Source: Antitrichia curtipendula (Eukaryota; Streptophyta; Bryopsida; Hypnales; Leucodontaceae). From it: 64,000 bases of DNA. Below, in pieces: positions 796-45,341 of the stretch. Location of the stretch: the NCBI GenBank assembly GCA_951230915.1, contig OX579642.1, positions 8,432,001-8,496,000 on the forward strand, read 5' to 3'. The position numbers and the translations under genes were made by a program. A model generated the notes under the pieces. It was not told the DNA's origin and ran no database searches. It was given only the letters and a program-made list of their open reading frames with translations. The stretch's first letter is position 1. Each line of letters begins with the position of its first letter.

Positions 796-805
796 CTTGC
801 AATAA
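796..805. repeat. Left target-site duplication of the 16.5 kb element
   Basis: The 10 bases CTTGCAATAA occur here and again, identical and in the same orientation, at 17309-17318. They directly abut inverted terminal sequences on both sides. Mutator-like elements typically duplicate 8-11 bp, so the length fits. Confidence 0.8.
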
Positions 806-870
806 CAACGTTGCTAGGAAGCGAGCAGGGAGTGGGGAGCGGGAAATAGTGAGTGGGGAGCCTACATGTT
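806..870 (+). repeat. Left terminal inverted repeat of the MULE element
   Basis: Read inward, it holds TGCTAGGAAGCGAGCAGGGA and then AGTGAGTGGGGAGC. The right end, read inward on the minus strand from 17308, holds TGCTGGGAAGCGAGCATGGA and then GGTGAGCGGGGAGC. Identity is high over these blocks and falls off inside. Confidence 0.75.
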
Positions 871-1345
871 GGATGGAAAATGAAAAAATGAAATGAAATT
901 AGAATTTTTGGTGGATGAAAGTCGTTGACATTTCAGATGAAAGTCACTGAAAATTTGGATGAAGGTTACCAAAAATTTGGGTGGAAGTCACTAAAAATTT
1001 AGTGGATGTCAATTAAATTTTAGACTAGAGCATAATAAGGAGATGGTTTGGATGAAAAAAGTGGATGAAAGTAGATGAATAAATTGAATGAAAGTAGTTG
1101 ACATATTGGATGAAAGTGGATGAAAGTAGATGAATAAATTGGATGAAAGTAGTTGACATATTGGATGAAAGTAGTTGACATATTGGATGAAAGTGGATGA
1201 AAATAGATGAATAAATTGGATGAAAGTAGTTGACATATTGGATGAAAGATTGAAAGTGGATGAAAGTAGATGAATAAATTCAATGAAAGTAGCTGAAATA
1301 TTGGATGGAAGTTTAGGAAATAAATTCAATGAAAGTAGCTGAAAT
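871..1345 (+). repeat. Left subterminal array of GGATGAAA-type units
   Basis: A degenerate tandem array built from GGATGAAAGT, AGTTGACATATT and AGATGAATAAATT blocks, densest from about 1050 to 1340. The same GGATGAAA words recur in inverse orientation inside the right end (16850-17215). Open frames across it on the minus strand only reflect the repeat. Confidence 0.8.
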
Positions 1346-1908
1346 ACAGGATGAAATCATATGCTGTAAGAGTTTAGGCATTACTTGAAAATACAAGGGG
1401 ACACTGCTATGAAAATGAGAAAATGAGTAACAAAATTCCATTGCCATGCACAAATGAATATTTTGAGATGATGGTACCTATGGCTATAGAAATATAGTGG
1501 CCTATGACCGCAGTTTAGGGTACAATATTGTTTTGCACCCACATAATAGTAGAACGGGAATACACCTATTACCGTAAAAATGTAAAACAGTTTGGAAGTA
1601 GACCTTGGTGCTTGTTCCAGGGTTTAGGAAAATGTTAATTTTGGACAATAGGTCAGATCACTTGTTTCATATGTTGCCTTTTCGGCTACAAATGTTGGCA
1701 CGATGCTAGAAATTACAAAAATAAAGCACATGCTGGGTATGACTTCATGCAAAGGAACATCATGTACAATATGAGTGTACTTAAACCAATTTTTGAAAAG
1801 GGATGAGTTGATCTAATGAAATGCAAGTACTGGCCTTTTTAGTCTCAGTACATTTTCATTTATGTGTTCAGTAAACATAGGCTATGTTCTTTTACGCAAA
1901 AAGACAAC

Positions 1909-4900
1909 CTAATTTGATCCCAAATGATTCAGTATTCCACTAAAAAGCACTTTCTTCACTTCATTGAAACTGAAACTTGTTGCATGAATGAAGGCCTCCG
2001 ATGTGGACTGTAGGTTGCAGATGATAGTGAAAATAAAATAAAGGTGCTTACAGTTTGCCCAAGTTCCCCGCTTGCCCAAGCACTTTAGCTTCATCTCCTT
2101 GAAATTTGGGCAAGTGCAATCTGGAAAAGAGGATATAGTGAGCATGTACTTTTCAAGGCGAGGCTCTAGACCAGACACGAGTGACACTATGCAACCAAAT
2201 CCAGGGTGGGGAACCATTGTCACCCTCTCTATGCGTGCATTCAGTGTTAGGGCCGATGCGCAATTGTTCTGGTGCTTCACCAGTGGGACCTTCAGGTTGC
2301 GGCGAACGACCTTCCCTGCTCGAGTTGTTGGATGTTCATCTGGTGAAGACGGAACCGGGTAGGCACGCACAATTTGTATTCCTGCTTCTCCACCAAACAG
2401 TCTTCAAGGCGAAATGACTTGACGTTGCGGAAGTTGAAAGCCTGCCGCTTCAAAGGCCAAAATCTCGGCCTTTGAGAGTTTGGTGCCCATTTTCACTGGC
2501 CAAATGTTCGGAATAGCTGGTATTGATAACACCCACTTCCGCCGTGTACCTTTCACACATCGTTCAATGTCGTCGTTGCAAAAGAAAAATTGCATACGAT
2601 CATGCCGATTTTTTTGGTAATTCACCATCATACCTGTATATGTTGGCGCCGCAGTAGCAATGTTGTTCTGGACTATTTGTGCTGTGCACTTCTTCTTGGT
2701 AATTGCTTGGAGTGCAAAGCATGCCTTTGCTGATGTTTTCGGTAAACGTGCTATGTGCCATTGCTCCTCGTTACACATGGTCTCTTGAATTGCTGTGACA
2801 TGAGTCGAGTTCAGCGTACTAGTGACGCCTCCAATGTTTTCATATGATGTTAGCACTGGAGGGGCCACATCCACACATGGAGAAACATCCTCCAAAATTA
2901 TGTTCAAATCCGATGCACTTGAAGTGGCTCTCCACGACCGGGTTTGGATGCGTGGATGGGAGAAATTGACTTTGTCCGGTCTATGTGAGTCATATTCGCA
3001 GCCAAGTGGCATGTCTGCCTTTCTCTTTTGCGATCCAAACACTTCTTCACCTTCAAGGTGAGGCTTTCTACTGAAAAATTCCTCTACATCTAGAATGTTT
3101 GAAATAGCTTCCGTGAGTGGCTTTGGATTGCCCGTTCGCTCGGCTGAACGTTGGGCTACGCGGAGCATTAGTTCTTCCTTCCCCGGTCCTGTACCTGGTT
3201 GATTTCCCTTTAGAAATTGGTAATACCGTACCATCTGCATGAAGGCTCTAACGAAATCATCAATCGTTGCAATGTACAGATCGTTACCCCGATTTCCAGA
3301 TTGTTGAAGCCACTTGTTATGTACTGTCTCAGCAAGGTTGCATGATGGCATTTCTGCTAGCTCTGACTCGTTTAGATCCTGACAGAAAATCATCCATAGA
3401 CCACAATTAATTACCACTATCCACAGACCTACTCTGATAAGGTGCATAAAGCAATATTGAGGATCAAATAGCAGCGGTGGTATTAAATGGACACAAATCA
3501 CTTTAAAGAAGTTTAATGATTCTTCCAAGACAATTTAGAGACAAAGACCCCTCTTGTTAGCGAGAGGAATTTCCAGGGACCAACACCATGGGTCATTGAC
3601 AGATTCTCATCCTGCCCAGTGCGCAATTGACGAGGAAGAAATGAAAGAAATGTAAGCGGTTTACTTACTCACCCCTCTCTCGGTACCGAGAGGGGGGTCT
3701 AGGGTCTCCCTGCCATGCATCACTAAGAGATTTTTGCCTAACAAAGACCGCCCTCCTTGCCCACGTTCTAAGGGATCTACAAGGTCCATTTAGAATGGAT
3801 CGGGTTGGAGCATTGGATAAATTCTAGTTATTGAACAAGAGGGGTAAAGAAGACACTCACTTATTCATTAACATACAAAATCTCTGCATTATTTTCAGAT
3901 GATAAGTAGGAAGGAGAAGGACTTACAAGTTGCATGAATCCGCCCCATTGACGATACCGAAAATGCCAGAAAGAAAGCCACAACTCCAATCGATGCAGTC
4001 CTGAATCAGTGGTGGCTCCTGATGATAACCACCATGCTTTTATGGCTAGGTAACGAGTCTTAGACTCCTCGGGAGTCTGGGCGTTTTTATACTGCTTACA
4101 AAGTAGACGATGTTGATCTTGTAAGTCCCCGCAAATATCCGCCTTTGTATGTTTTTCCATGGATTGTGTCCAATGAAAGAGGCACGTTCTTTCACGATGT
4201 TCCATTGGTACGGTACTGTCCCCACATCCATAGATTGTCCGCACAGCATTCCAATTTGTTTGTGCACTATCTGCCATAAACCCCTTGAATTGAGTGTCGC
4301 AAACTCCATGTCTTTCGACAACAGAGTTAAGGTTTTTCCAAAAGAGGATTTGAGCGGCACAATCTTCAGATTGCATGTCACAAACAGCGATTGTCATTAC
4401 ACGACAATACACGGAGTCGTATACATGACACGCCATGGTTGTCCATCCCTTCACGCGTTTGACGTGATCGAACATTAGCCACGCGTCTTGTAGGTCTCCT
4501 CCACTTTGCATTCGCTTCACTAGGTCAACTCCACTTCCAGGTCCTACTTCTGACATTTTGAAAACAAAAACTTTGTCCACCTCTGTCCCCTGACCAGGGA
4601 ATTTACTCTCTTGAACAAAAGCCCACATGCTTGACTCCCTCAACTTGGTAATGCTGTCAATCACTCCAAATCTCCTTAAATATTTGAAAGACGTTACCTC
4701 GTTTCGAATACTTGGGGAGCTGAAGTATTTGCATTTATCCAGTACAGGGACGAGTTCATTGAAGTCCAAGTCTTGGTTTGCAGTCCATCCGGACACAGAA
4801 TAAGCTCGCCCAAGAGTTCCTTTGTAGCCTCCATGACAATTGATGAGTTGGTGCCACTCGGTGTTCTCTCCATCTGTTCTCCAATCAGAGTCCGAGTTCT

Positions 4901-6022
4901 CTCTTTCATATCGTGGAGTTCTCCATCTTTAACCGGGTGATCATGAGTGCCCAGATGTATAAAAGCACGACTACGCGACTCATTCCCAGTAACGTAATAG
5001 ACCTTCACACTACACCTGGCAATACACGAGGGAGGCTCCTTGCAGATTTTACAAACAAGAGATGAACCTGGAGGATGGATATCGCCAACAGCCAGTGGAG
5101 TAGGTGACAATCCTTCCCATTCTATTTCATTTAAGTCCATGGTTCGGTGGACGCGACTAAGGAACTCACACGAGGAATTTATGCAACGAAGATGACCTAG
5201 GCAAAAAGTGGTGCGGAACGATAACCCCATGGGGTTAGATATATTTGTGGTTACCATCTTGGACCACGCGTGACCATCACAATGCCTATCCATGCCAACC
5301 ATGTTCTTGGCCTCAAATTGAGTAGGATAGGATTGTAATGCAGGCAACTCGAATATCACATTTCCATTAAACTGTGGAGGCAACGCCTGCACTCTTTCAA
5401 TGGAAATAGTATTGTAACTGAGTTTGGACAACACATTTCTACATCCCTTTAACGTTCGAAGTCTTCTCAAGCAATCTATGACAGATACTCCTGAGAGACC
5501 AATTGCAGAAGTATTGCTTGTCATTGCTGGGGTCAAGTTTATAGGGGTTGGTACTGTCGACTGAGAAGGAGTGTCCACGTTCCTATTGTCCTGAGGGAGA
5601 TCTACATCAGAATCATCACTCAAAATGGTGACATGATCCGGGAAGGCCTCCTTCTTCACACGAGTGAAGGTAGAGGTTTGAAATGACGACGAAGATGATC
5701 GATGGACTGCAAAAGCATCTGCACAAACAGACCTATTTGAATCGAGTACTCCATAAGTCCTATATTTTTCGGGCTTCAGATGCCAGTACGTCTCCTCAGT
5801 ATCTGAAATCGGGACTTGTCCTACGCTGTGAGTGATGTTCCCAGTGTCGGCATCAAATATGTCTTCTTCAAGATGAATCGACTCTACCTTCAGATTGAAT
5901 CGTACACTTAATCTAAAAGCTGAAACCACGGCAAGTCCGTCTTGGCCCATAGGAAAAATGACAGGAACCTCGTCTCCATTTGCACTGACCACTATCATGT
6001 TCTCAAAGTCTACCATGGCCAT
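1909..6022 (-). pseudogene. Mutator-like (MULE) transposase, frameshifted, one intron
   Basis: It starts at ATG 6022. The first part (6022 to about 4785) ends in a zinc-finger region with CX4CX4C, a CKIC pair and HLGTHDHP, as in the WRKY/GCM1-type fingers of MULE transposases. A one-base shift near 4785 leads into the DDE core (to 3927), with FDHVKR, then FMADSAQTNW, then a CLFHW motif. An intron at 3926-3379 has GTAAGT and CAG borders and keeps phase exactly. The next exon, from 3378, has NLAETVHNKWLQ, a typical MULE segment. The frame breaks again near 2455 and near 2310, then gives a SWIM finger, CTC followed by CKH, ending at 1909. Family knowledge: this is a cut-and-paste transposase that binds terminal inverted repeats in the nucleus. 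Three frame breaks make it a likely pseudogene. Short introns or sequencing errors at the breaks are alternatives. Confidence 0.82.
3550..3692. promoter_or_regulatory. Two GTACC-type palindromes in the transposase intron
   Basis: CCTCTTGTTAGCGAGAGG (3550-3567, one arm mismatch) and the perfect 16-mer CTCTCGGTACCGAGAG (3677-3692) lie inside the intron 3379-3926. They resemble the palindromes in the first and sixth introns of the neighbouring methyltransferase-like gene. The function is unknown. Binding sites for an element protein are a guess. Confidence 0.65.
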
Positions 6023-7220
6023 CAGATTTGAAAACGTCTAAGTAAAGTATTACATGACAACATACAGTAATTGAAACAGATGAGTTGACTGAAATGATAG
6101 AGTGAGAATGTGAAAGAATGGTTGAACAAGATATGACTCAAGCAAATAAACAATATGACTTAGATGGTAGAGATATATGAAAATTTGTAAGGTAGCATAA
6201 TTTAGAGAAGTTCACCTTTTAAATGGAAAATGCAGGTTGGCGGCTAAGACAGAAGTAACTATCCAGTGACACTAAATGTCATAAAAGACATAATACGGTA
6301 TCAACCGCCTAATATGGTTATTCATATTCACAATAATAAAAAGCCTGACTTCTCTGTGTAAAACAATAATTGCAGACTCCTATTTCAAGCGTATCCATGG
6401 AATTATGTCTTATAAAATCTACACAGCCAACTGAGACCGTCAATCAACCCAAACAAATAAAGTACATTAAGTGACAGTCTAGAAGTCATCTATAGGTAAT
6501 ACATTAGAAGCACAGGGCATATTTGGAGAAAATTTTGGAAAACATAAACAACATGAAATCATAAACGTGTAGTATCTTCAGGAGTGGATCTCATTTTTTA
6601 ATTGGTAAAATAACATAAGGGTTTAGGGTTTAGGATTGAACCGAGGTATATTACTTTTTCAATTCTCAGGCAACATAAATATGAATTAAATATAGTGCTT
6701 TGAAGTCTATATACAAGAATATAGCAGTTGGTAATTGAAAATCAAAAAAGCAAGTATCAATAAAGCTGCTATACGTTCTGGAAATAATTTTAGTTACCTA
6801 TGGCTTCAAAATTTGGAAATTCCAACTTTATTAGAAAAAACAATACTTCAGCCTTTTGCAGAGGCCCAAACAAATTTACCTCGGTGTGAAAGCTGACCAA
6901 CGGCTCGACCAATGCTGTTGATCGCTGGTCACTTGGTAACCTACGATCTCTGGTCACCAAAACCATAACCACCAACAACGAAATCCTAATCAGGAGAACA
7001 CATTGAGGGAACCGACCGCGGCACTCTCCATTTCAATACCTTGTTGCCCCGTACGCCTCCCAACCGGAACACCACGATTGACAGTTCCATCGATTGAATG
7101 TTTCATGGTCTATATGATTCACCATTTGAATGCCTCACCAGTCAAGGAATGCTTTACATGCTTTTTGACTTACTCACATCTTTTGTGAATCTCAGTGTTT
7201 TTATTAAGAGCAGGCTGAGC
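6023..7220. promoter_or_regulatory. Divergent intergenic region of the element
   Basis: About 1.2 kb between the transposase start (6022, minus) and the earliest plausible start of the ParB-methyltransferase gene (7221, plus). It should hold both promoters. I see no coding frame or repeat here, only AT-rich DNA with a short TTTAGGG-like run near 6619. No defined promoter element can be assigned by eye. Confidence 0.45.
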
Positions 7221-10200
7221 ATGGAGCCTAATTTGAGGTCGCGAAGCGGAAAGGCAATTGCAGACAGTGGCGATGCACCTGCACTACAGCCAAAGCCTCC
7301 GAATGACACGGTACGATACTCCGGAATCCATTGTCTTACAAAAAACAACTCGGCCATGGCCGCGTTTCAGCAATTAGGTTTCACTTTCAAAGTTTCGATT
7401 AGGATGTAGGTCGTGAAGAGGAAATGAACAAGACCAAGCGCAGCTTGGGGAGGGTCTCGATACCAAGACCCTAGGGTGGGGGGCGGCAGTCTTGGACATT
7501 TCCAAGATTTCCAGTGAAGGCCCGAGAGCTTCGGTTCCCAATTCTTTTTTGATTTCGTGTACTGGGTTCGTTTTTTGAGTTCTAATTCAAGAATCTCAGG
7601 GGAGAGTGGCATTCAATTTTGGAAAGCAAGCGCGTGAGGCTCACACTCGAGGGCCAAATGGTATTTTCTGTGAATCGAAGTCATGAGGCTAGCAACCAAA
7701 TGTGAATTTAGGGTTTCTTGTTTTTTTCTTTTTCTTCAAAGTTTCGATTAGGATGTAGGTCATGAAGAGGAAATGAACAAGACCAAGCGCAGCTTGGGGA
7801 GGGTCTCGGTACCAAGACCCTAGGGTGGGGGGCGGCAATCTTGGACATTTCCAAGATTTCCAGTGAAGGCCCGAGAGCTTCGGTTCCCAATTCTTTTTTG
7901 ATTTCGTGTACTGGGTTCGTTTTTTGAGTTCTAATTCAAGAATCTCGGGGGAGAGTGGCATTCAATTTTGGAAGGCAAGCGCGTGAGGCTCACACTCGAG
8001 GGCCAAATGGTATTTTTTGTGAATCGAAGTCATGAGGCTAGCAACCAAATGTGAATTTAGAGTTTCTTGTTTTTTTCTTTTTCTTCAAAGTTTCGATTAG
8101 GATGGAGGTCGTGAAGAGGAAATGAACAAGACCAAGCGCAGCTTGGGGAGGGTCTCGGTACCAAGACCCTAGGGTGGGGGGCGGCAGTCTTGGACATTTC
8201 CAAGATTTCCAGTGAAGGCCCGAGAGCTTCGGTTCCCAATTCTTTTTTGATTTCGTGTACTGGGTTCGTTTTTTGAGTTCTAATTCAAGAATCTTGGGGG
8301 AGAGTGGCATTCAATTTTGGAAGGCAAGCGCGTGAGGCTCACACTCGAGGGCCAAATGGTATTTTCTGTGAATCGAAGTCATGAGGCTTGCAACCAAATG
8401 TGAATTTAGGGTTTCTTGTTTTTTTCTTTTTCTTCAAAGTTTCAATTAGGATGTAGGTCGTGAAGAGGAAATGAACAAGACCAAGCGCAGCTTGGGGAGG
8501 GTCTCGGTACCGAGACCCTAGGGTGGGGGGCGGCTGTCTTGGACATTTCCAGGATTTCCAGTGAAGGCTCGTGGACTTTAGATCCAAAAAATTTCTTTCA
8601 TTTTTTCAATTATATCTCTTTTTCTACTGAGGTCTCAAAGGGGACGCCTTCGAATCAAGCTTTTGACAACACTGCACAGGAAGAGGGCCATATTCACGTG
8701 TCTGAGAGGGTCATGGCTGCAATACCTTTGGTAAGCCTCTTAGGATTATTAAAAGAACTCGTGTTGACAATCGATGACTTTTCTAAATTTGGAGTCATTT
8801 CCTAAGTTATTCATCTTCTTCCTCTATAGTTGAAAGTATCTTAGAGGCGATAAATTCATCTCCTCCTCATAGTTTAGAGTACTGCACTTGTGTCCGCATC
8901 GAGGTAGTGGTCATATCCGCTTCAGCATTGGATGATGACATTCGAATCTACTGCTGCGGACATTATTTGCCTATGATCGAGAGGTGCTCTATGATTATTG
9001 AATGTTTTTTCTATCACTTGTTTTATTGATTCACCTTCTTATGTAGTATACTGTGGTACCCACGTTGAATCGGAATACCTATTTGATTTCTTAAATCCAT
9101 TCATAAGTTATGGTCCAGACGCAGATAGACGCCCAAAGAAGCCCTCCTTCGGAGTTACTTGTTCCATCAATAGTGGATCCAGTACCACAACCGCTAATCG
9201 AGTTCTTGGACATCAACGACATGGAAGAAGACAACGCTCCGGGATTCGATGGAGACATGATGGAAGATGAGATAAGGAAGACACATAAAATGGACGTCGT
9301 CTCTATTATTTCGAGCTTGAGGTTGACATCATCCGACTTGTCCAGGATGCGTATCCCCTTATGTCGAATGATACGCATGCCAATGGTTCGGCCTACATTA
9401 GAGTGTGACCTTGTGCAACTCGAGAACCAGTTTGCATGGGGATACGAAGAGGGAGCAAGAGTCTTCTATGTTTCCATTGCAGACGAGCAAGGGCAGACTG
9501 GCGTGTTTTCGACTGTAGAGAAGGAAGAGTGGGGGCCACTGTGGAACCAAGTGAATGACAAGTTCAACGCACAACTCAGTTCCCAGACGGCACTAAGGCA
9601 TTTGGTTGACCACAAATTCTACGTTTGTGATGGCAATCATCGTCGGATAGCCTGGATGAATCATATTAAGCGGAAGCATGCCACCGACATTGATTGGCAC
9701 TACGCTGTAGATTCTATCATTTTGGACACGAGGAGTCGAATTAGCACAACCATGCAGGTTATGCACGACATTAACCAGTAAGTACATTTTGCTCTTCAAG
9801 CAGAATACCATTCTATTTCCTAATAAATTGTTTTGTTCAAATCATTCTTAATTTTAAACTGACAATCGTGACACCTTCTTATTTTTTAGGCACACGGAAA
9901 ACTCGCACGTGAAGAACAACCTTGTCCATACATTATATCGAGTGCAAAAGTATGGTGTCATGGATCTGGAGAAGTTCCATGAGCTACTCAACCCCGAGGA
10001 AATTAAGACTTGCAAGAATACGGCAAGGAAAACCTGGTACTCAATGCCCCTTGAAGTTTTCACATCGTTCATCTTTAAGGTATGAATTCCTGTTCAGTTT
10101 ATTTTCATTTATCCTACGTTCGAAATTCCATGTACTCTAAAATAATTCCCATTCTAAATTAATATGTGTATGCATACAGCAAGAGATTTCAGCGTTGGCG

Positions 10201-13200
10201 GACCTTGCTGTTCGTAAGTACCACAAAGACACCCCGAAGGACGAGGTGACGCCGGATGGAGTGGCTACTGCAATGAGAAGATCTATCAAGGACTCCACGG
10301 CCTCTTTCCGCCAAAAGATGTCAAAGATAGTATCCATGGCGGCTCCATCTCTAGGTCCCGGATTCCTACAAGAGGTAATTTTGTATTCCTCATTTGCTTT
10401 CAGGAACAATCAGACATTGAATTGGAGTATTTGGTCTAATTTTTTTTCTTTGTGATTTTATAGATTGAGAGGCATTGGAGCCTTTTCACGGTACCGGAGT
10501 TAACCCTTGACAAGTTGCAAATGATATCATCTGCCGTAGCTTCCCCTACACACAAAGTAAAATGGCTGAAGTGGATGAATGCATCTGCTCCTACAAGGGA
10601 GGCTCGTAGATTTCTAGCTCAGCCTGTCAACGAGGACAAATTGATGTTGTTCCTTGCGAGGGCAGTTTGGTATGCTGGGGTAAAGATATGTAACTTTCTC
10701 TTGCTTGTTGAGATGTCAACGTTATTTGTTGATATATATCCCTTTGTCAAATTACACTGGATTCTCAATTAATTGCAGACATTGTTTGACTCTTAATAAT
10801 ATTCCATTCTTATTATAGCTAGAGGAGTCAGCTCTTACGCTCTTTGATACCGTTTGTAAGGCTGACAATATTCCAATCAATATGGATATTCCAACGGAGC
10901 CGCAAACACTGTCCAAATATCTGGAGGAGTGGAGAATGAAACTATGGGACATGGCATACACTGGCATGTTCAAGGGATTGGAGCCTTTCAAAAAGTCTGA
11001 TACTTTTGCAGACTTCCGTGGAGCTACCCTCGCAGTGAAACGACTGCTCTACAGGTACTATATATGTTTATTGATGGACACCACTTCTTTATGTTTTATT
11101 GGTGTGTTTGCAAGAGTTAAAAAATCCAAGGCAAGAATGTGGTACCGGGAGGCTCTAATTTGTGAAGAGGTAGGAAGGCCAGAAGGGTGTCTTGTAATCA
11201 AGACGGCCTTTGGAATAGGGGCACCCCATGAAATACTTTCAGGAAATTATGGTTGGAAATCCAGTTTGAAAGTTTAGGAGGGGGCCCAAAAGTTTCAATT
11301 TGTCAAGAGATAGGCAACATGTGAAGGTGTCTTGGTACTGAGACAACCTCAAAGAAGGAGAAACTCATGCAATACTTACATGAAGCTAGCGCTCCAAATA
11401 CAGTTAGAAAAATTTTGGTAGGGACTCGAAGATTCAAAGTTGTTAAAAGGTAGGGAGTCCATGCGGCTGTCTTGGTACCAAGACACCCTCAAAGGCGGGG
11501 CACGCCATGCACAAGTTACTTAGAAAATATCTCTAAATCCTATTGTCTGAGAGTGTGTGTACGTCAAAATTGATGTATGTCAAAATGTGGGCCGGCCATG
11601 CTGGTGTCTCGGTAACGAGAGGGTCTCCAAGGGGAGGCAACTTATGGATGAATACTATTTTCTTGACAAATTATTTTTTCTAAACCATGTTTACATCTGT
11701 TGAAATTGTGGATTCCAGGTACTTCAAGCTTGAGTTATATGCAAAGAAGGCAATAGAAAAGGCGGATTTACCGCCGTTCCTTACTACATGGTTGGACAGA
11801 TCGTTGACCGACTACATGTTCTCTGCTTCCCAGCTGCGTCTGTGGACCACTCCACATTTGCAGGCGTGCCCATGGTATCTCGAGTGCAACTTCGGCACCA
11901 CTCCGCCAGAAGAGGAGTCCCTCTTCTGGAGACTGAAGGGAACCATGGACGTCCAGCCAGAGTTCCATGAATTTGCGGGTTTGGATCCCGAGGCTCGATC
12001 CAAAGCCATTGCAAAAAGGGAGGTGGCAGACAAGAAGGAGGAGAAATGGGAAGAGGCTAAGAAGAAAACAGAGGACAACAAGAAAAAGCGCATGGCGGCC
12101 AAGGTGGAGAAGGAAGAAGAGAAGGCCAAGAAGAAGGGGACTAAGCGTAAAGCGGAGACACCCTTACACGAACCAGCTACTAGCGCAGCAAAGATGAAGG
12201 ATACATCTTCTGGTTTCTCACTCACTCAGGAGCGACTAGTGCACGGTCTCACACCGACAACTCAGAATATCGACCCTGTTCTGGACGTCGATGAGTGCAT
12301 CCTTAACTTGCCTTTAGGAAGTCTCTGCGACCATACGAAGGCACTTCAGGACGTCGAGGCCTTCTTGGGCATGGTGAGTTTACTTTCGTTTATTAATGGC
12401 CTCATATTTCCAATATTCTATGCACAACTACAAGACAATAATGGGCCACATGATGTTGGTTAATAAGATTAGTAGTCTCGTAGTTAGAGCACCGGAATCC
12501 TCATACTTTCTTGAATTTTATGATTTCTGCAACGAATGTCTTTTGCAGCATTCCAGTGACAAGGATCGCTATTTTGATGGTAAATTGAGCACACAAGCCG
12601 CTGTCGACTTGATCATCGTGGACGTCCCGGAAGGACTACATGTGCCAACTATTTCCGCACCGCCTGCACCCATTCCAAAGTGGAATGAATTCGACAAAGA
12701 TTATCTCTTAGCTGTATTTGACTTTGCCCAAGAGTACCTGCACGACAATGGCGGTTTATTGGTGATATATCCTGCCCCTTCTAAGAAACACCGAAGCCAA
12801 CTCCTTGGATGCTGTGAAGAGTATAAGTTCCGCATACTTCTAACGTACTTCGGCAACAACCATCTCCATCTCACATCCCCTGTAGATCCAACAAAAACGG
12901 TAAGAACTCTTCTTCCATCATGTATATTTCATTTGAACTTGCACTTCCCTTGTATCGGCTTCTAACATTTGTTTTCTTCCAGACCAAGCGCTTCGCTGCC
13001 TCTCTAGTGGTCAAAGAGGCTGGCCCGAAGACACAAGAGGATTTTCCGTTCCAATTTGTTCCATCCCATGATGCCGTTGGGGTCACCTTATGCACTGACG
13101 ACATCCTTTCGAACTTGTGTTTCAAAGAAGACGTTACCATGAATGGTGACGTACCGTGGCGGGGCCCACGTGAGAAGGCCCGACAGTTCATGCAGATGCT

Positions 13201-13897
13201 AGTGGAAGGGATGACGGAACCAGGAGACGTCGTCGTCGATTGCACAGCGGCCACAGGTTTTTTTTGGCTAATTATTTAATTTAATGTCAATGATATCATA
13301 TCATGAACTTCATGTTCCGATGATTTTTGTTAATATTTGGTCGGGATGTTTGTAGGTTCCAGCATCCAAGCTTGCCGCGCCACGCATCGGCATATTTGGG
13401 CATTTGAGGAAGACAAGGCTATTTTTGAAGCCCTTATCGCTCCGGTCATGCGCACTGCTGCGGGTGTCTCTAAACCACCGCCACAACTGCCAGTGGAACT
13501 TGTAGACCTAGACGACGAGGACGTACCTGCACAAGTTGTCAAGAAGACATCTCGATTCAGTAAGTAAGTTTTACTTTAATATCTTTGTTTGTTTCCAAAG
13601 ACTGAGCACTATCTCATGTATTCTAATATGTTGTTTCGTGGTGTTTGCAGGAAAGCCACAAAATTGAGGCTCTCTCAACAAGTTCCTTTTTTTGCCAATC
13701 CGGATTTCTTTCCAAGCCCTGAAAAACCATTTCAGCTACCTATATACGCTGAGGAGCTTTGCAGGGATTTTGTTGCCCTAAATCCTAGACCCACTTCTAG
13801 GGCCTACTCGGTATATCCTCGTACTCTCCGATTTGTAGATGATTGTGCCGTAGAGTCAGATTTGCAGACATCGGATAGTGAGGGTAGTTCTACCTGA
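7221..13897 (+). CDS. ParB-like domain fused to beta-class DNA amino-methyltransferase-like domain, spliced
   Basis: Core exons, all with GT-AG borders and unbroken phase, are 9119 (or ATG 9110)-9777, 9890-10079, 10180-10374, 10464-10679, 10819-11054, 11719-12373, 12549-12899, 12983-13256, 13356-13563 and 13651-13897. Two upstream exons, 7221-7310 and 8632-8730, fit in phase but are tentative. The product is about 1,080 aa from 9110 or 1,139 aa from 7221. The N-terminal part has YVCDGNHRRIAW, the ParB/Srx signature. A Lys/Glu-rich stretch with KKGTKRKAE follows and could be nuclear targeting. The C-terminal part has VDLIIVDVPEG in the motif IV position, a Rossmann-like strand GGLLVIY, then EPGDVVVDCTAATGSS as motif I. 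Motif IV before motif I is the beta-class order of N6-adenine/N4-cytosine methyltransferases. DVPE replaces the usual (D/N/S)PP(Y/F/W), so activity is doubtful. DNA binding or marking of the element is inference. Confidence 0.78.
7391..8575 (+). repeat. 349-bp tandem repeat array, about 3.4 copies
   Basis: Copies start at 7391, 7740, 8089 and 8438 (the last partial). The spacing is exactly 349 bp and identity is very high. Each copy carries a 20-bp palindrome of the type GGGTCTCGGTACCGAGACCC. If the tentative first exon at 7221-7310 is right, the whole array lies in intron 1 of the methyltransferase-like gene. Otherwise it is upstream of its promoter. Repeated 60-90 aa minus-strand frames across it come from the repeat and are not genes. 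Confidence 0.93.
7452..8518. promoter_or_regulatory. Four 20-bp palindromes, one per 349-bp unit
   Basis: The sites are at 7452-7471, 7801-7820, 8150-8169 and 8499-8518. The last, GGGTCTCGGTACCGAGACCC, is a perfect 20-bp palindrome. The others have one or two arm mismatches. The spacing follows the 349-bp unit, so conservation may simply reflect the array. The same core recurs in unrelated sequence at 3677 and 11469. Confidence 0.7.
11189..11700. repeat. About 140-bp diverged tandem repeats with palindromes in intron 11055-11718
   Basis: Palindromes sit at 11189-11204, 11329-11344, 11469-11484 (perfect GTCTTGGTACCAAGAC) and 11606-11621. The spacings are 140, 140 and 137 bp. The bases after each (CCTCAAAG, GGCGGGGCA-like, then CATGMA words) are also related, so these are diverged copies of a unit of about 140 bp. 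This is by far the longest of the well-supported introns of the gene (664 bp). Confidence 0.75.
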
Positions 13898-14165
13898 GTC
13901 CAACTTATGTGAAGTACTGATATCATCAAGCACTCTTGGATCAGGTGCATGTACTTCATTTTGAGGATTATGATTTTTTTAAATCTTTGTATGAGTGATT
14001 TCTTTTGGAATGTATATGTATTCTGAAACCATAATATCTTTTGGGGTGCATGCTTAACCACAGTCATTACACACCTCCCTTCTCATAATCTACAGAACTT
14101 GTCAGCAAATTTAGAATCTCCAAAATTTTCTAAGCTATCTTTGCATCCTAGTATAACAAACAGAG
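13898..14165. other. 3' region of the methyltransferase-like gene
   Basis: AT-rich sequence after the TGA at 13895-13897, likely holding the 3' UTR and polyadenylation signals. No further coding sequence is seen. Confidence 0.4.
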
Positions 14166-15560
14166 TTAGCTACGAGGGGGGGAAGCTAGGCTGCGCTGCC
14201 CGATCAATATTGACGGATTAGGCGGGCTGCCCATCCTGCCCACCTCAACTACCAAGGTTGGCTATCCACCCTATCCACATCGACTGGAAGGCCGGCCTAC
14301 CTTGCTTGTCTATTTTGAGAGATTGAGTTGGTAGCCTAGGTTGCCCCTACTATTGGATAGGTAGATGAGTGGGTCGGTAGGTGGTTTGGCAAGGAAGGCT
14401 GTACTTCACAGAATAGGCAACCCGCCCTTCCTACCAAACTCAAGGGCGTGGGCAGCCCGCCCTTCCTGCTAAGGTGGGCCGGGTGTGCAGTTCCCCAAGG
14501 ACACCAGCTCGAGAGGTTGTTAAACACCCCCTCCTTGTGTAGCTTGATAGATTTGGTAGCCCGCTCTCCCTGCCCAATTGGCCGGGTTGGGCAATCCCTC
14601 TCTCCTTGCCTACCTTAATGTGCTAGGTAGCCCTTCCTCCCCCCCCCCTTGCTCAGTTGGAAGGATTGGGCAACCCTCCCTCCATGCCCAACTCAAGTGG
14701 ATGCTCTGCTTGTCCCCTCCAGTCCAGTTGAACAGCCTGGGCAGCCCGCCCTCGCTGCCTAATTGGAGGGATAAGGCAGCTCGCCCTCCTTGTTGAACTG
14801 GAGGGGTGGGGCAACATGCCGTCCCTGCCCAACTCGAGGGGCTGGGCAGACCTTGAATCTTGCCCAAATCAAGGAGGTGGACAGCCTGCCTAGCCTACTG
14901 TACTCAAGGGACAAAGCAGCCCGCTCTCCCTGCCCACCTGGACGAGGTAGGCAGTCTGCCCCGCTCGAAGGGCGGGGTAGCCCCCCTGCTCAAGTCGATG
15001 AGGTGGGCAATCCCTCCTCCCCTGCCCAACTGGATGAGGGGTGCAGTCTGCCCTTTTTTACATCAGTAACATCGCTCGAAGGACAGGGCAACCCTCTCCC
15101 CCTGCCTAGCTCGATGAGATGGGCAGTCTATCCCCCTTTGCCCCACTTGAAGGGCGGGGCAGACCTCCCCTCCCCCCCCCCCCCCCGCCTAGCTCGATGA
15201 GGTGGATGGTCTGCCCTACTCAAAGGGTGGAACAGCCCCCCCTACCCAGCTCGATGAAGTGGACAAACCTCCACACACACCTGCCCAGCTCAATCAGGTG
15301 GGTCCTAAATCCCTCTGTGCCCCGCTCAAAAGCCAGGGCAGCCCTCCCTTGCTCGCTACCCATCCGGACAAGGTGGGCAGTCTGCCTTGCTCGAAGGGCG
15401 GGGCAGCCCTCCTTCCACCCTTGTCTACCTCGACAAACGGAGCAGTCCCTCTCCTCTTCCCCAGCTTGGCGGACTGAGCAGTTTGTCCCCGTTACCTACT
15501 TAGAGAGATAGGGCAGCCCGCCTTCTTAGTTCAGCTAGAAGGATGGGGCCGCCCGCAACC
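14166..15560. repeat. GC-rich degenerate minisatellite
   Basis: About 1.4 kb made of 40-50 bp half-units alternating CTGCCCARCTCGA(T/A)GAGG and GGGCRG(T/C)CYGCCC. Spacings between similar blocks vary (about 56, 80, 85 and 92 bp). Base composition is far more GC-rich than the surroundings. Open frames on both strands (for example 14578-15511) are proline/serine-rich products of the repeat and not credible genes. Confidence 0.8.
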
Positions 15561-16496
15561 ACTACTCACTAGAGTCGGATAAGATGATGTATGGCAAACT
15601 TATCACTTTGTGATACACGTCGCCATGTTGTGGCATTTAAAGAGGATGAGTTTGTCTTTGTCTCCCAAAAAAATCCCCGCATGCGTGCAGTTTTGATAAG
15701 ATTAGTGTTATAGTCTTGTAGAGCTCAAGACAAAGACATCAGATAGCAAGGGTAGTGTTACAGTCAGTGGAAGTAGTACGAGGTCACATTACACTGTAGT
15801 AGTTCGAGTGCATGTAGTTTACAGAGAAATTGAAGTTTCAATTTTCAATCATATTTGCGGGCGCATTACTCTTTTGGGGTGTGCATGCTCATTGTTGCCT
15901 TTGGATTATTACTACTAATTTGTACTTGATTCATTATCTAACACGCTTGACATCTTTGTAACATTGATCATGCATCTTCTTTAGTCAGACGACGTACTCC
16001 TCCATGAACACATTAGAATTGTTGACTTGCTTACCCTTACACCCACAAGAAGAGCCCCTTCTAAAATGGTGTTCCATGGGACATGCATTTCATTTGCCTA
16101 ATGATATTGACAGATGAGTGCGTCGTCTACTGTAGGAGATGCATGATGAATGTCTGTCAGATGGTGAGCTAGTTGGCATGTAATGATAATAAATGAAAAA
16201 TTGATGCTCTAAATGCTGTCATGGACATCAACTCTAAAAAAACAGCCTAAAGCCTCTTAGAATAGAGAATGTAGATGTTTCAACAATCAATTGAACGATA
16301 ATGCTCCAAGTGCTAATCCTACCATGAAGGTAGAAGCGGACAGAAACGAGTAGGTCCACTTGATTCTTGCAAGGCGATCTTTGAAGACTTCCAAAAAAGG
16401 TAAGAGGTACTAGAGGGTAACTACAATGATCGGAATTCCGAGAGTGAAGCAATAATATTTAGCGACTTTCATAAAACATCCAGTAACCATACTGTG
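15561..16496. other. Non-coding segment inside the MULE element
   Basis: AT-rich sequence with no coding frame, RNA gene or repeat that I can recognise. Confidence 0.5.
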
Positions 16497-16665
16497 TTGT
16501 TGCAGTTCAATTTTGTTCGCTTGTCCCAGTCTCTTATGTTGATGCGATTCAATTTCAATTGCTTGTCCTAGTCTCTTGTGTTGATGTAGTTCAATTTTGT
16601 CCGCTTGTCCTAGTCTCGTGTGTGGATGTAGTTCAATTTTGTTTGTTTATCCCAATCCCTTGTCG
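16497..16665 (+). repeat. 42-bp tandem repeat, four copies
   Basis: The word (G/A)TTCAATTT starts at 16505, 16547, 16589 and 16631, exactly 42 bp apart. It is followed each time by a TGTCCTAGTCTCTTGTG-like block. The array lies just inside the right subterminal repeats of the element. Confidence 0.85.
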
Positions 16666-16849
16666 CCACACGAGTATGATTTTGAAAAAGTAGCCCCATG
16701 CAAATTCAAACAAAATTTGAAGCTCTAAACGAGAAGTGCAACAATTCAGATGGACGAAGTCTTTTCTGCTACTACCAAATCACCACTCATCTTATCTTTT
16801 CTACGTATAGGTCGAAGTAGGAAAATTTATTGCAAAATCTTCTATCTTG

Positions 16850-17215
16850 TGTAACCAATTTTTTCATCCATTTTAGTATCTACTGTCATCCATCTTTTGA
16901 TTCAGTTTCATCCATAATTTTCATCTACTTTCATCTGTATTTTTCATCCACTTTCATCCATATTTTTCATCTACTTTCATCCATATTTTTCATCCAATTT
17001 TCCCATCCACTTTCATCCATTTCTTCCAACTCCTTTCATCCATATTTTTCATCTACTTTCATCCATATTTTTCATCCAATTTTCCCATCCACTTTCATCT
17101 ATTTTCTCCAATTACTTACTTCCATTTTTTCCATGCAGTTTTGTGATTTTTTCTTGAAATTTGATCCATTTTTCATCAACTTTCATCCAATTTTTCATCC
17201 ATTTTTTGCCATTTT
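16850..17215 (-). repeat. Right subterminal array of TTTCATCC-type units
   Basis: On the plus strand it is TTTCATCCATATTTTTCATC repeated with variants, including an 82-bp repeat (16971 and 17053). Read on the minus strand it gives GGATGAAA words like the left array at 871-1345. An open frame at 16830-17318 is only the repeat. Confidence 0.8.
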
Positions 17216-17308
17216 TCTTTTTCCGTTCCAATATTTCAGCTCCCCGCTCACCAATCCCCGCTTCTTGCTCACCGCTCGCCGCTCCATGCTCGCTTCCCAG
17301 CATTCCCC
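17216..17308 (-). repeat. Right terminal inverted repeat of the MULE element
   Basis: Read inward from 17308 on the minus strand: GGGGAATGCTGGGAAGCGAG, then GGTGAGCGGGGAGC, then ATTGGAACGGAAAA. It matches the left end at 806-870 apart from the outer six bases and scattered changes. Confidence 0.75.
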
Positions 17309-17318
17309 CTTGCAATAA
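17309..17318. repeat. Right target-site duplication of the 16.5 kb element
   Basis: CTTGCAATAA, identical to 796-805. It immediately follows the last base of the right inverted repeat. Confidence 0.8.
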
Positions 17319-24241: not shown

Positions 24242-27200
24242 TTAAAAACCTGCCCACCCTGCTGGTTGTACTCGACTTGCAGGCTCCACACTGCTGCTGT
24301 TTGAGGATGCAAGTGCCTTGGGATTATGAAAGGCCCTACTTACTGAAGGTGGTGGGGGACTGACCGACTTCCAAGAGTCTCCTCCAGGGAGACTAGACCT
24401 AACGTCCTGTTGTCGCATGTTCCTGTCTCCGGGTTTCCCTGAGGAACCAAACACTGAGTCCGTGCTTGCCCTGAGAGGGTTCTGTGGGGTTGGACTAGTA
24501 AAACTGGATTGTTTGGGTGGATCCTCGAAAGCGGCCCATGAGTTTTGTTTGTTGGAGTTTGAGGAGAGGCCTTCCTGGAGGTCCCATATTGTTCCACTCT
24601 GCGGCTCTGACCCCTGTTAAGTACACACCACGCAATTTAGTTTGAGAATTAGAAGCAGAATGTCCTGCTAGCAGCTTCTACGCATGTCCTTACCAGCATT
24701 GCAGTTCAACCTCACAACGAACTACCACATAAAATGGATCGCAGGAACACAGCGGAACAGTCAACATCGAATTCACAAGCAAAATTGATTCAACTAGGTG
24801 ACATCCTATTTTACAGTTAGATAATGCCAGAAGAATAAGATAAACAAGGATGATTATAAATCAGCACTGGAATTTGATAGCACACACGATGGACAAACAT
24901 ACGTATGCACTACCAGTTACTTACCTGTTCATATGATTGCGATGCCCTGCCACGTGAAGCTGAGTTCTGCTGCTGCATCGAATTAGAGTTCCTTGTCGTT
25001 CCCGACTGAAGCTGAGACTTGAGGTCATGGAGTTCTTGCCGTTGAGAACGACAGATGGTTGTCAATTTCTCAAATTTCGACGCTATAGCTGCTTTTTCTG
25101 ATTGAGCCTGTCGCAGTGCTTCATTTAACCTTTTCACCTCGTCTTTCAACTGATCAAGCGACCTCGACTGCAAAACTGATTGACTATACTCGGTTTCAAA
25201 AGCTGCAAAAGACGAAGAATCGTTGGTAGGCTCGGGTAAAACATGTTTTTGCCTCGACGTCGAAGAGCTTTTTCCTGGTTCATCTTCATTCTGCCAACCA
25301 GTGCTCTGCCTCGGCTCGTCCTCGTAATCACCATGCTCCCTGTTCCTAGGGGTCGGTGATGGACCTTGACTTTGCCAAGCCATTCCACTCTTCCCGGGAG
25401 GTGAGCTACCATTCTTTGGGGGACTGTTGTTCAAGTACCTGTTGTTCACGGGCGGACTGGTGGACTTGGCTGGTAGAGGAGCCTTGTTGTTGTTGCCACT
25501 CTTCTCTTGTCTCGAAATGGGCTCATCTGGTTTCGCAGCTTGGGCATACTGTGTAGACCAGAACGCACCTTTTGCAGAGTTAGTGCCCGCAGTTTCAGAT
25601 GAACGCTGCTCGGGTTCTTTAGGCGGAGTACGGGACGGTGGAGTTGAGCTAGAGACCTTGACCCCATCCGTAGAACCGCCTAAAAAAAAATCAGAGTACA
25701 GAGGATCAAAAACTCGCCATATGTATATATCACATTCAATAGATCTGTACGTGAAGAAAGTGATAGCAGTATATGGAAATGTGTTACGTCCAGTTTAGGC
25801 ACTAAGGATTACATAGATCTGGATAAAAAAAACGAACTAGAAAACGATCTTAGCCCCCTGAATGATCGCAAAACTGTTTTGGGTTGATGGAGGTTTTCAA
25901 ACATCCATTACTCGCATCTGAGAGCTCTCTGCTCAGCAAAAACATTACTGGAAGGGACTTGGCAAAGCTACTCTCTACGATGAATGCTCAGATCTGACAT
26001 TATCAGAATTTAGACTTCAATAGAAGGGCATAAAATAAAGAAAGCTTGACTAAGTTGATTTTCAGTTCAAAAGCGGTCTTGAGAATATTGGGTTCCTAGG
26101 TTTAGGCAAGAAAAGAAGTCTAAAAATCACTGCATTGAGAGCGTCAAATTTCAACCCCATTCCAACAAGTTTCATTCGAAACTGTAAAATCTATACTTGT
26201 AACCAGTTCTAGAAAGAACTGAGGTATAAATTTATGTATTAAAATATTAGTGATAGCACTGGGAATGCCGACTGACAAAGATTCAACGACTTTCTACCAG
26301 TTACAAGTTATTTATACAGATATAATTTTCAAATTCAAAACCTACAACTTCTATTCATACACCACTTACGAATTGTTCTCTCGGGTTGCATTATAAGAGG
26401 GATAATTGAAAAATCTTCAAACTAGGAGAAGGATAGAAGCCTTTATGGGTTCAGATATGCTAGCGAGCCAAGTAAAGGAGGTAGAGTCTCTGGGGTTGAG
26501 TTGGCGCGTTGCTCACCTGTATGATGCTTCTTGTATGACGTCAATGTCTTATTATGTGTAGGAGACTTATCCGGGTGCGCTTTTCGACAATCAGAAGGTA
26601 GAGCGTCGTTAACACGCTGCCAGACCTGCAGGGCAAGCTGGCAATTAGATCCAAAAGGACGAAAATCTCGGTCTTCAACAAGCCCCGACCTAAATCCAGA
26701 ACCTTTAGAAGAAAAGTTCTCCATATATCTTGCTGCCACAAAAACTAACCTATTCATGTAGAAGAATGGGCCTAGTCCATCAAAGCCCTTGCCTGCATGA
26801 CATCTGGCCTTGCCTCCGGCGACACATTGAGCATGTCTTTGATGAGTCCCGTGATTGCAGCAGAGTATCTCGGCATGTCCGGAATTCGGTAGTTGCAATT
26901 CAGGATTTGTAGTTTCGACTCACCATCGAATGCTGACTTCAGATAGGCGATCCTATACAGGAGACAACCGAGTGCCTGAATTCATCCAAGTACCAATCAT
27001 TAGTCCAAAGGACTCATCACAGAAACCAATGCAGTCACTACGAATTCATCCAATCAGTAGAAGAACTCTTACCCAGATATCCACCTTCTCGCTAATTAGC
27101 TCCTTCTGGTAAAGGTCCCACATCTGGCAGAGGACGGTCAAGAGACTGAAGTAAGTAGGATCCTAGTTTCGCAAATCAATTCATCGAAAACAAACACCCC

Positions 27201-28892
27201 AGTAGCATCAGACATTGAAGATTATCCTTGTGTGCCCAACGGGACATAATTGGCCACTTGCATATCTGAATGAGTTGAAATAAGTGATTTACGTAATTTC
27301 AAGGAAGGAGACAAAAATCAAAAGAAGAATTCATACACTGTATGTTTGAACAATAAGAAACATGTTTTGAAAGTTACTATAATCAACTATAAGCTTCCGA
27401 AGTGGACAATCCAATTTTAGCCAGTGCATTTAGGGGTTATGCAGTAAGTGCTCATGGGTTATTTAAACTCAACTCCTACGAATGTTACCTAGAAACCCCT
27501 CAGATTTCAAAAAAGGAAGAGGAAAGAAAACAAATTTATAATCAAGGAGCCTAAAGCTCATTACAAGCAAGCAAGCCAATTGCCAACAAACCTCTGGTGC
27601 TCGATAAGAAGGGGTTGTGAATTTTCTTATACAATCTTCTTCAAGGCCCATCTCTTCAGGTGTGTCAAAGTGCTTGTGATTGATAGAAGTGCTGCCGAAG
27701 TCGCACAACTTCCACGTCCCGTCTGGACCCATGAGCACATTCTCCACTTTCAAATCCCTGCGCAGAACGCTTAATCTCTTAGAATTATCCTCAACCTCAT
27801 TCAAAGTTCCTGAACCTGTTTCAGGGAATATGTAGGGGTGCCTCTAATGAATAATGCAATGGACAGCTGCTAGCAAGCATTTATCTGTGATTCAATCACA
27901 AATCTGAAATAATGTTTGACTTTAAGCATAACTGTCATTGATGACAAAAAACTCCAAAACAGTACAATGAATTCTTGAAAATGCAGAATCTGTGGTTGAC
28001 ATCTAGAACTTGGCCCAGAATATGGATTAGCAAACAAATTAGGGTATGGATTTGCCATGTCACCGATCCCGAAACTCTGTCCCGAACAAGCAAGTCCACT
28101 AGGGCTAATGCACCCACAAAACAAGGTAGAGACACTCTGAAATCCGAGACAATAAGAAAATTTATAATTAAGAGAATTTCCTCCCTCTCACGAGCTGACC
28201 GATGACGATTTCGGGACACCTACCAACAGAACCTTGAGTCTTCATAACTTTCATAACTATTGCATACAGCATCCAAACCAAGCACTCATCGGTGCGTTGG
28301 AATCCTCTTCCAATTGCCAATAAGAAAACATAAAGCTTGACCAGCTGAGGAGCGACAGCAAACGAATAGTGACACATTATCGCCACAGCCAAACAAAAGA
28401 GCCGAGGCAACAGATTCCGAACCTGTGGGCAATGGGAGGCGATTGGCAATGCATAGCGTACACCGCATTACAAACATCCAGAAACATAAGCAGAATTTGC
28501 TTCTCCTCGTAATAGCCCGCGCCTCGATTCTCCAGCACCAGCGCCAGCATCTTGTGGCAATACTCCATCACCAGAAAGCACTCCTTGGTGCGCCCCAAGT
28601 CATACACCACCTGCGCCTGCAGGGTGACCACGTTCGGGTGGCCCCGCAGCGCCTTCATGACCGCCACTTCCTTCTTCACGAGCTCCACCGACTCACTGTC
28701 GTTACAAATCATGTGCTTGAGCGCGTACGTCTTCCCACTCGCCGACTCCTTGGCCAAATACACCGACGAGAATCCGCCTTGCGCAATCACCGACCGCACC
28801 TGCAGCTTCAGATCGCCCACGTCCACATGCTTCCCCTCCAGCGTACTCCCGCCCGCCTCCTTGCTGGGCATGAACTGCTTCAAACGCCACAT
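24242..28892 (-). CDS. NAK/AAK1-like Ser/Thr protein kinase, seven exons
   Basis: Exons on the minus strand are 28892-28423, 27757-27592, 27123-27073, 26975-26793, 26625-26517, 25679-24925 and 24613-24242. Phases agree throughout and give 701 aa. The start MWRLKQFMPS is the canonical plant form. The kinase domain (about residues 25-310) shows the glycine loop AQGGFSSVYLAKE, the lysine in YALKHM, HRDLKVEN, LCDFGSTS and TTPSYRAPE, then MWDLYQKELISEKVDIWALG. A low-complexity Ser/Pro-rich tail follows, with a coiled coil near LDQLKDEVKRLNEALRQAQS and the ending GWAGF, as in Arabidopsis relatives. Family knowledge: NAK kinases (AAK1, GAK, yeast Ark1/Prk1) phosphorylate clathrin adaptors and control endocytosis and actin. 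The plant substrate is inferred. Intron 4 starts with GC instead of GT (CAG|GCAAGG). Other introns are GT-AG. Confidence 0.93.
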
Positions 28893-29500
28893 CGTGCCCC
28901 CACCCTCAAGGCACCGAAAGCTCCCCCACAACGGGATCCCAAACCAAACTACAAAACCAGACGACGCGGGATCCAAACGAAGCAACACAGAGATCTAACC
29001 AACCAAAGGATCCAAGACCAAAACCAAACCCTCCAAGGCTGGAGTTCAGGATCCCGAGAGGCAATAAGTTAGGGCAGAGCAATGAATGAGGACAGATCTG
29101 GGGTGCATGATGTCTGTGGAAAGGGGCCTCCCTTTCATCGGCTTCGTAATCAGTGATCTGGGTGATGCGAGGAATGTTAGTTGGGGGATTGCTGGGAAGG
29201 AAGAGGTGAAACGGTGCTGCGGGAATTCGGAGCACATGGGCGGGCGATTAGGGTCCAAGCACGGGCTCCCACAGATGAAGACGAAGGCGAAGGCGGAGGA
29301 GAGAGATGATATCTTCCACAAGGGGTTTCGGTCGTGTGGGCCGGCCATGGGTGGGGATGGAGGTGACGCCGGTATGTCGCGGTTAGGGGGGATTGATATC
29401 TCAATGTGAGTGGGTTGATTTAGGGTTAGGAATTTCGTTGTGTGCTTGACCTTGCAGGCCCTCTGAACTTCTTGATTGCTAGAATTTTGGAAGTCCATTC
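28893..29500. promoter_or_regulatory. 5' region of the kinase gene
   Basis: GC-richer than its surroundings, with many overlapping short frames and none convincing. It lies directly upstream of the kinase ATG and most likely holds its 5' UTR and promoter. I cannot place individual elements. Confidence 0.4.
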
Positions 29501-43542: not shown

Positions 43543-43548
43543 TCGTCA

Positions 43549-45281: not shown

Positions 45282-45341
45282 CGTGATTTTGGATACACGG
45301 ACATAATTGAATATCTAAGAAATCTAGATCTACCAGAGGGA

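Follow-up and report, generated by a model that had tools for sequence, protein, structure and literature searches.

Does the segment at positions 796 to 17,318 of a 64,000-bp stretch of the Antitrichia curtipendula genome (contig OX579642.1, positions 8,432,001 to 8,496,000; the whole stretch is referred to here as the window) constitute a mobile element and, if so, what use does such an element have for a gene that resembles both ParB and a DNA amino-methylase? An earlier note on this DNA had described the segment as a Mutator-like element (MULE) carrying that gene as cargo. The window holds a real mobile element, one member of a genuine family of large transposons, and this family is in turn part of a lineage that comprises several families of large DNA transposons with 10-bp duplications, in which a transposase gene stands divergent from an accessory gene, encoding a protein of about 1,080 amino acids (aa) made up of a ParB-like part, a middle part and a beta-type amino-methylase part.

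Boundaries and copies of the element

The window element is delimited by the following features:

796..805, no strand: left target-site duplication, CTTGCAATAA
806..860, plus strand: left terminal inverted repeat, beginning CAACGTTGCTAGGAAGCGAGC; the other copies share this left boundary
17249..17308, minus strand: right terminal inverted repeat, beginning GGGGAATGCTGGGAAGCGAGC when the reverse strand is read from 17308
17309..17318, no strand: right target-site duplication, CTTGCAATAA, directly outside the right terminus

Within the window, CTTGCAATAA has no plus-strand occurrence other than these two (796-805 and 17309-17318), and the two termini align as inverted repeats with a score of 42 over 60 bases, compared to 22 for the best of 500 random pairs. 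Each terminal inverted repeat is composed of a core of about 20 bp and a long imperfect mirrored array; terminal inverted repeats are among the features of MULEs. Random pairs of 10-mers from the window matched at a rate of 47 per 2 million, and a chance repeat as the source of the CTTGCAATAA pair is ruled out by the other copies, which have duplications of their own.

To locate these copies, the left end was used as a query against the assembly from which the window was taken (400 Mb, 303 contigs), and the best 40 of 74 candidates were scored. Nine close matches were found at 94-100% identity, the window among them, together with more distant ones at about 67-76%; the eight other close copies and c1a, a relative at 76%, were analyzed. 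Homology blocks span the element in the eight further copies, and end alignment sets the boundaries at identical bases. Both ends are present in eight copies, the window included, with lengths of 15.4-16.5 kb, and all eight are flanked by 10-bp duplications, seven of them perfect and all different in sequence, and the eighth (c3) matching at 9 of 10 positions. In the ninth, c2a, the interior is interrupted by a large insertion and the right end is gone. The direct repeat immediately outside inverted termini 16.5 kb apart, as first described, was seen again, the other copies with both ends have repeats of their own, and the proposed check for further copies with both genes between such ends returned not only copies but additional families.

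The two divergent genes

A transposase gene and a divergent ParB/amino-methyltransferase-like gene had been reported between the ends, and both are present there (for the accessory gene, exon borders were drawn by eye from the window copy):

3861..6037, minus strand: transposase exon 1, with two conserved Asp (MFDHVK, FMADSAQ) and C-x-x-H; 1-bp deletion near 4769
1909..3534, minus strand: transposase exon 2 region, with CNxAExxHN (candidate catalytic E); in-frame TGA at about 2404
9110..9777, plus strand: accessory exon 1, ParB N-domain-like fold, FYVCDGNHRRIAW
9890-10079, 10180-10374, 10464-10679, 10819-11054 and 11719-12373, plus strand: accessory exons 2-6, middle part, with a Lys/Glu-rich stretch in exon 6
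12549..12899, plus strand: accessory exon 7, methylase motif IV position, where VDLIIVDVPEGLH replaces DPPY
12983-13256 and 13356-13563, plus strand: accessory exons 8-9, methylase motif I region, VVVDCTAATGSSIQACR
13651..13897, plus strand: accessory exon 10, with the stop codon of the 1,079-aa protein

The accessory gene occupies 9110-13897 on the plus strand, divergent from the transposase, and in the window its ten exons are spliced through GT-AG introns into an open frame of 1,079 aa. By fold comparison the product of exon 1 belongs to the ParB/Srx fold, as a ParB N-domain, and no ParB family was listed by Pfam for 71 accessory homologues; compared with chromosomal and plasmid ParB, Noc and KorB, the motif here reads DGNHRR. 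In copy c1b the accessory frame is open, yet one splice acceptor is AA, and the other seven copies have stops or a frameshift. To the right of the gene, positions 14200-15540 of the window are GC-rich and of low complexity, with GGGCAG-type and CTCGA-type words recurring by eye.

The transposase gene is composed of two minus-strand exons, which encode 725 and 541 residues from stop to stop in c4a, c4b and c2b, the three of the nine copies in which both exon frames are open. In the window the transposase is broken by the 1-bp deletion and the in-frame stop listed above, both absent from the other eight copies. Among homologues, the two Asp residues are conserved in 33/34 and 30/30 sequences and the C-x-x-H residues in 27/29 and 29/29. 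A SWIM-like motif (C-x-C...C-x-H) was recognized by eye within 1909-2403 of the exon 2 region. Neither the 1909-2403 frame nor the 541-aa exon of c4b had a match in Pfam, and neither a MULE nor a SWIM model was among the Pfam families listed for 40 transposase homologues. A model of the transposase core (predicted local distance difference test 65) gave ISCth4 in the four best Foldseek rows from the PDB (E 0.007-0.32, none at or below 0.001); ISCth4 belongs to the IS256 family, bacterial kin of Mutator. Because of this weak fold match and of the 10-bp duplications, Mutator-type is probably the best label for the transposase, though not a proven one; the available part of PMC6446971 gives target-site duplications of 8-11 bp for the MULE superfamily. 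The original assignment as a MULE is weaker than first put: it rests on the length of the duplications, the conserved acidic residues and the weak ISCth4 match, and finds no counterpart in Pfam for the 40 homologues.

Pairing of the two genes

In genome searches with both genes, the best 39 of 4,080 candidate regions were retained for the accessory gene and the best 62 of 1,810 for the transposase. Among the matches listed, a transposase lies upstream of 29 of the 39 accessory loci, on the other strand and no more than 20 kb away, and the count is also 29 when any orientation is accepted; the window, whose broken transposase is absent from these matches, adds a 30th paired locus. Random placement (2,000 runs, one contig's size being approximated) produced a mean of 0.07 pairs and a maximum of 2. 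For nine of the 39 accessory loci the matches listed include no transposase inside 20 kb: one of these loci (C7:21246133) has it just beyond that distance, another at 33 kb, and seven have none listed nearby.

In public protein sets, 80 homologues of the transposase exon and 112 of accessory exon 1 were found, none of them with a precomputed Pfam domain. A search with the full-length accessory protein gave nothing at E ≤0.001 among the 7,988 candidates scored, which is probably an effect of length limits on spliced genes, because exon 1 alone did retrieve its homologues. Three contig sizes (225,379; 258,601; 555,475) are common to both homologue lists, each of which has 33 distinct sizes of at least 20 kb, and this suggests that both genes lie on the same contigs elsewhere.

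Selection on the accessory gene

The family-2 element C2 (18,929 bp) shares its ends and the placement of both genes with family 1, that of the window, and has a 9/10 duplication. The ratio of nonsynonymous (dN) to synonymous (dS) divergence between the two families was calculated with a Nei-Gojobori script on codons paired by tblastn. For the accessory gene, dN was 0.161 and dS 1.249 (ratio 0.129; 1,070 codons, no stop), and for the transposase the ratio was 0.146 (1,201 codons, one stop). A family-3 accessory gene on C7 shares 660 of 986 aligned residues, with saturated silent sites and no stop, its last exon being mostly outside the stretch compared. From dN/dS and from the co-occurrence of the two genes, the accessory gene, previously regarded as cargo, is an old and selected part of the whole transposon lineage, kept by purifying selection while the families diverged.

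Along the gene, the silent sites of families 1 and 2 have diverged unevenly, from 1.6 to saturated in exons 1-3 and only 0.65-1.0 in exons 7-10, a hint that parts of the gene may have recombined or been exchanged as modules.

An altered methylase domain

The accessory protein matches the methylases phrog_3008 (E 1.6e-8) and DpnA (5hfj, E 0.0025), as well as PF01555 at an E of 0.0032, a match below the cut-off of that family. Motif IV precedes motif I, the order of beta-type amino DNA methylases, and the match is strong in the motif I half and weak in the motif IV half. The catalytic motif of amino methylases is (D/N/S)PP(Y/F/W), and the accessory protein does not have it: VDVPEG stands here where DpnA has TDPPYN, with fitting spacing, in a part of the alignment that scores only 1.1 bits. 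The form D[VI]PE was read in 12 of 13 places, as DIPE in family 2 and the C5 locus, and as DVPE in the window, in a paralogue beside copy c4a and in eight of nine further family-3 places; in c1a the motif IV position was not found. Because D[VI]PE replaces the catalytic motif, the protein is classed as a relative of these enzymes and not as an active methylase. The altered domain is nonetheless in use, as the ratios between families 1 and 2 on exons 7-9 (0.24, 0.18 and 0.17) indicate. Judged from its sequence, it is apparently an inactivated methylase, a putative pseudo-enzyme. A phage tblastn search with this domain returned 196 records, all below 60% identity, the best E being 6e-3 among the 20 matches listed.

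Repeat arrays and the role of the accessory protein

Three repeat regions of the element bear on what the accessory protein may bind:

900..1312, plus strand: left subterminal array, units of about 22 bp, GGATGAAAG 10 times
16862..17217, minus strand: right subterminal array, mirror of the left, GGATGAAAG 6 times
7386..8568, no strand: tandem repeat between the divergent genes, 349-bp unit, 3.4 copies

The ten plus-strand copies of GGATGAAAG fall within 806-1400 and the six minus-strand copies within 16800-17308, with a single further occurrence in the 64 kb; family 2 has mirrored arrays of the same word at its two termini, with 5 and 4 copies, and c1a has such an array at its left end. In most units of the 349-bp tandem repeat, GTCTCGGTACC forms part of a near-palindrome; words resembling it (CTCGGTACCGAG and GTCTTGGTACC) occur singly at other places in the element, also at 3679 and 11469.

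For the mechanism beyond sequence, fold and selection, we infer the following. We give an even chance to the accessory protein being a self-recognition factor in which ParB loading is combined with a pseudo-methylase, for anti-silencing, end finding or both; the protein may in this way help the element to recognize its own DNA and escape silencing. Loading sites for the ParB part would be the mirrored TGGATGAAAG arrays of the two termini or, alternatively, the 349-bp repeats that separate the genes, and from there it could spread outward in the way of CTP-bound (cytidine triphosphate-bound) ParB, which forms clamps that spread from a loading site. The methylase part would act as a pseudo-enzyme that binds DNA or S-adenosylmethionine (SAM), and the two parts would together keep the promoters and ends of the element unsilenced, much as VANC acts in VANDAL elements, or aid the transposase in finding and pairing the ends, or both. 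Anti-silencing is favoured, with end-pairing ranked second. A more specific version, offered tentatively and with distinctly less confidence, is that a eukaryotic transposon has recruited, for epigenetic self-recognition, a bacterial-type ParB switch which loads on parS-like TGGATGAAAG end arrays and spreads, while a dead methylase shields or re-opens copies against silencing.

Several observations weigh against a lineage-wide, selected accessory gene with such a role. The end arrays may serve the transposase alone. Both genes are open in none of the nine family-1 copies, and the changes private to one copy comprise 57 silent, 127 replacement and 13 stop changes (neutral expectation 0.32/0.63/0.05); as the nine copies evolve near-neutrally after insertion, the accessory gene is not kept at each site. 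By subtraction, 33 of the 62 listed transposases have no methylase within 20 kb among the matches listed, a figure that does not establish absence. The c1a transposase counts among these 33 and yet, read directly, has an accessory gene nearby. The methylase of c1a is only 31-46% identical to family 1, unlike the rest of the lineage, and the 23 kb examined showed neither its right end nor a second duplication. Finally, motif IV at L035 reads DVLE, not D[VI]PE. As to the nine copies themselves, their coding sequences show pairwise identities of 97.96-98.70%, and C>T or G>A accounts for 157 of the 197 private changes, from which the copies appear to drift, apparently after methylation.

Among the alternatives, a transposition co-factor whose ParB-like clamp bridges the two mirrored end arrays is a possible but less probable role than self-recognition. 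Mutator has second proteins of the MURB type, to which the accessory protein is likened in this co-factor role, sequence kinship being no part of the likeness. Mirrored arrays that stand at the two ends and are conserved from family to family agree with bridging, as does an accessory gene that travels with the transposase, but the present evidence does not separate end-bridging from anti-silencing.

It is doubtful that the protein marks the element's own DNA as an active methylase of the adenine-N6 or cytosine-N4 kind, and the earlier suggestion of self-marking is doubtful with it. The succession of motif IV and motif I fits a beta-type amino methylase, the SAM-binding half is recognizable, and 12 of the 13 places read retain both the D and the second P of motif IV, but the aromatic residue and the first Pro of DPP(Y/F/W) are gone in all 13, and one of the two glycines of motif I is lost (DPFMGSGTT to DCTAATGSS; the motif IV alignment scores 1.1 bits).

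Domestication, in which the window's accessory gene would be turning into a host gene, open beside a dead transposase, is very unlikely. Of the nine copies, the window's alone combines an open frame with a complete set of splice sites (on borders set on the window copy itself), but its 14 singleton changes (3 silent, 11 replacement) look like drift; domestication is thus unsupported, and the window is simply the least changed copy. Gene capture is known in MULEs and single copies do decay near-neutrally, but a host gene picked up by chance in Pack-MULE style, as a passive passenger, is the least credible origin and is ruled out by the dN/dS of 0.13 between families and by the co-occurrence of the genes, with position and strand shared by at least three families, at 29 of the 39 loci listed and, for the 112 public exon-1 homologues, in the three contig sizes shared with transposase matches.

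Relation to known systems

The comparisons below hold for the available portions of the cited papers. Accessory genes of the ParB-methylase type are described in Sola1 of Ectocarpus and in "green and red algal transposons" (PMC12477816), where active methylation is proposed for the algal proteins. Sola1-1_Ec32 is similar in being a giant transposon (21.5 kb, versus 16.5 kb here) with a gene opposite the transposase for a protein of 1,104 aa (1,079 here) that joins ParB-like and N4/N6 methylase parts; compared by description, the moss element differs in its Mutator/IS256-like transposase, 10-bp duplication, D[VI]PE and mirrored end arrays. VANC and its 9-base tandem motif belong to VANDAL21 of Arabidopsis (PMC5735166), likewise a Mutator-type element with a second protein, with a short motif in dense non-coding tandem repeats and with host cytosine methylation as its opponent; unlike in VANDAL21, the repeats here stand at both ends and are mirrored, the proteins being compared by description.

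DIRS1-type retroposons carry an inactive N6-adenine methylase (PMC3537659) and thus also represent mobile elements that keep a methylase predicted to be inactive, but they are retroposons with a tyrosine recombinase, and the word ParB is absent from the available text of that paper. Virus-borne Mariner elements (PMC3627910) are DNA transposons with a methyltransferase gene beside the transposase, and differ in transposase superfamily, in methylase types, in having an endonuclease gene and in residing in viruses. Fungal DNA transposons bearing TET/JBP genes (PMC12730594) also carry a DNA-modification gene, in their case a dioxygenase and not a methylase; a TET-like gene was met here only at c1a, the other loci not having been searched for one.

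No Mutator-type element with a ParB-methylase gene was found in literature titles and abstract openings, most subscription papers being outside the search, or in the available part of PMC12695648. The architecture had been presumed undescribed; the ParB-methylase class is already known in algal transposons, and it is the Mutator-type, mirrored-repeat, DPPY-less version that looks new. Accessory genes of this class, in print for algal transposons only so far as searched, therefore extend to a probably Mutator-type lineage, which within one genome has many copies and several families and in which the gene is stable and selected. The lineage also illustrates that selection can retain a methylase domain whose catalytic motif was replaced, and its protein, 9-bp arrays and open frames offer a cheap and concrete test of ParB-type self-recognition or self-protection by transposons.

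The c1a locus and neighbouring sequences

The c1a locus (L023, L024, L029) has a transposase about 81% identical to that of family 1 and, about 2.6 kb further on and on the other strand, a second methylase fragment that is 66-72% identical; it is a rearranged or gene-swapping locus. Between its transposase and methylase-like gene (L024:5518-6636, C1) lies a TET-like 2OG-Fe(II) (2-oxoglutarate- and iron-dependent) oxygenase, matched by PF20515 in two stretches of one frame split by a stop (E 2.7e-6 and 3.2e-43). This gene may be carried by a nested element; should it be part of the transposon itself, a single element would combine a methylase-like with a TET-like gene.

Copy c4a is adjoined on its right by a divergent, partly broken but full-length accessory paralogue (C4, 17363-21390 in c4a orientation; L030, L012), with 577 of 994 residues identical and three stops, so that c4a looks as if it had inserted into or beside an older relative. 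Outside the element, minus-strand frames at 28377-28994 and 24910-25794 of the window resemble by eye a Ser/Thr kinase gene, presumably of the AAK/NAK type and probably a host gene, and frames at 42157-46607 resemble, also by eye, a Ty3-type long terminal repeat retroelement with gag-like, reverse transcriptase and integrase parts.

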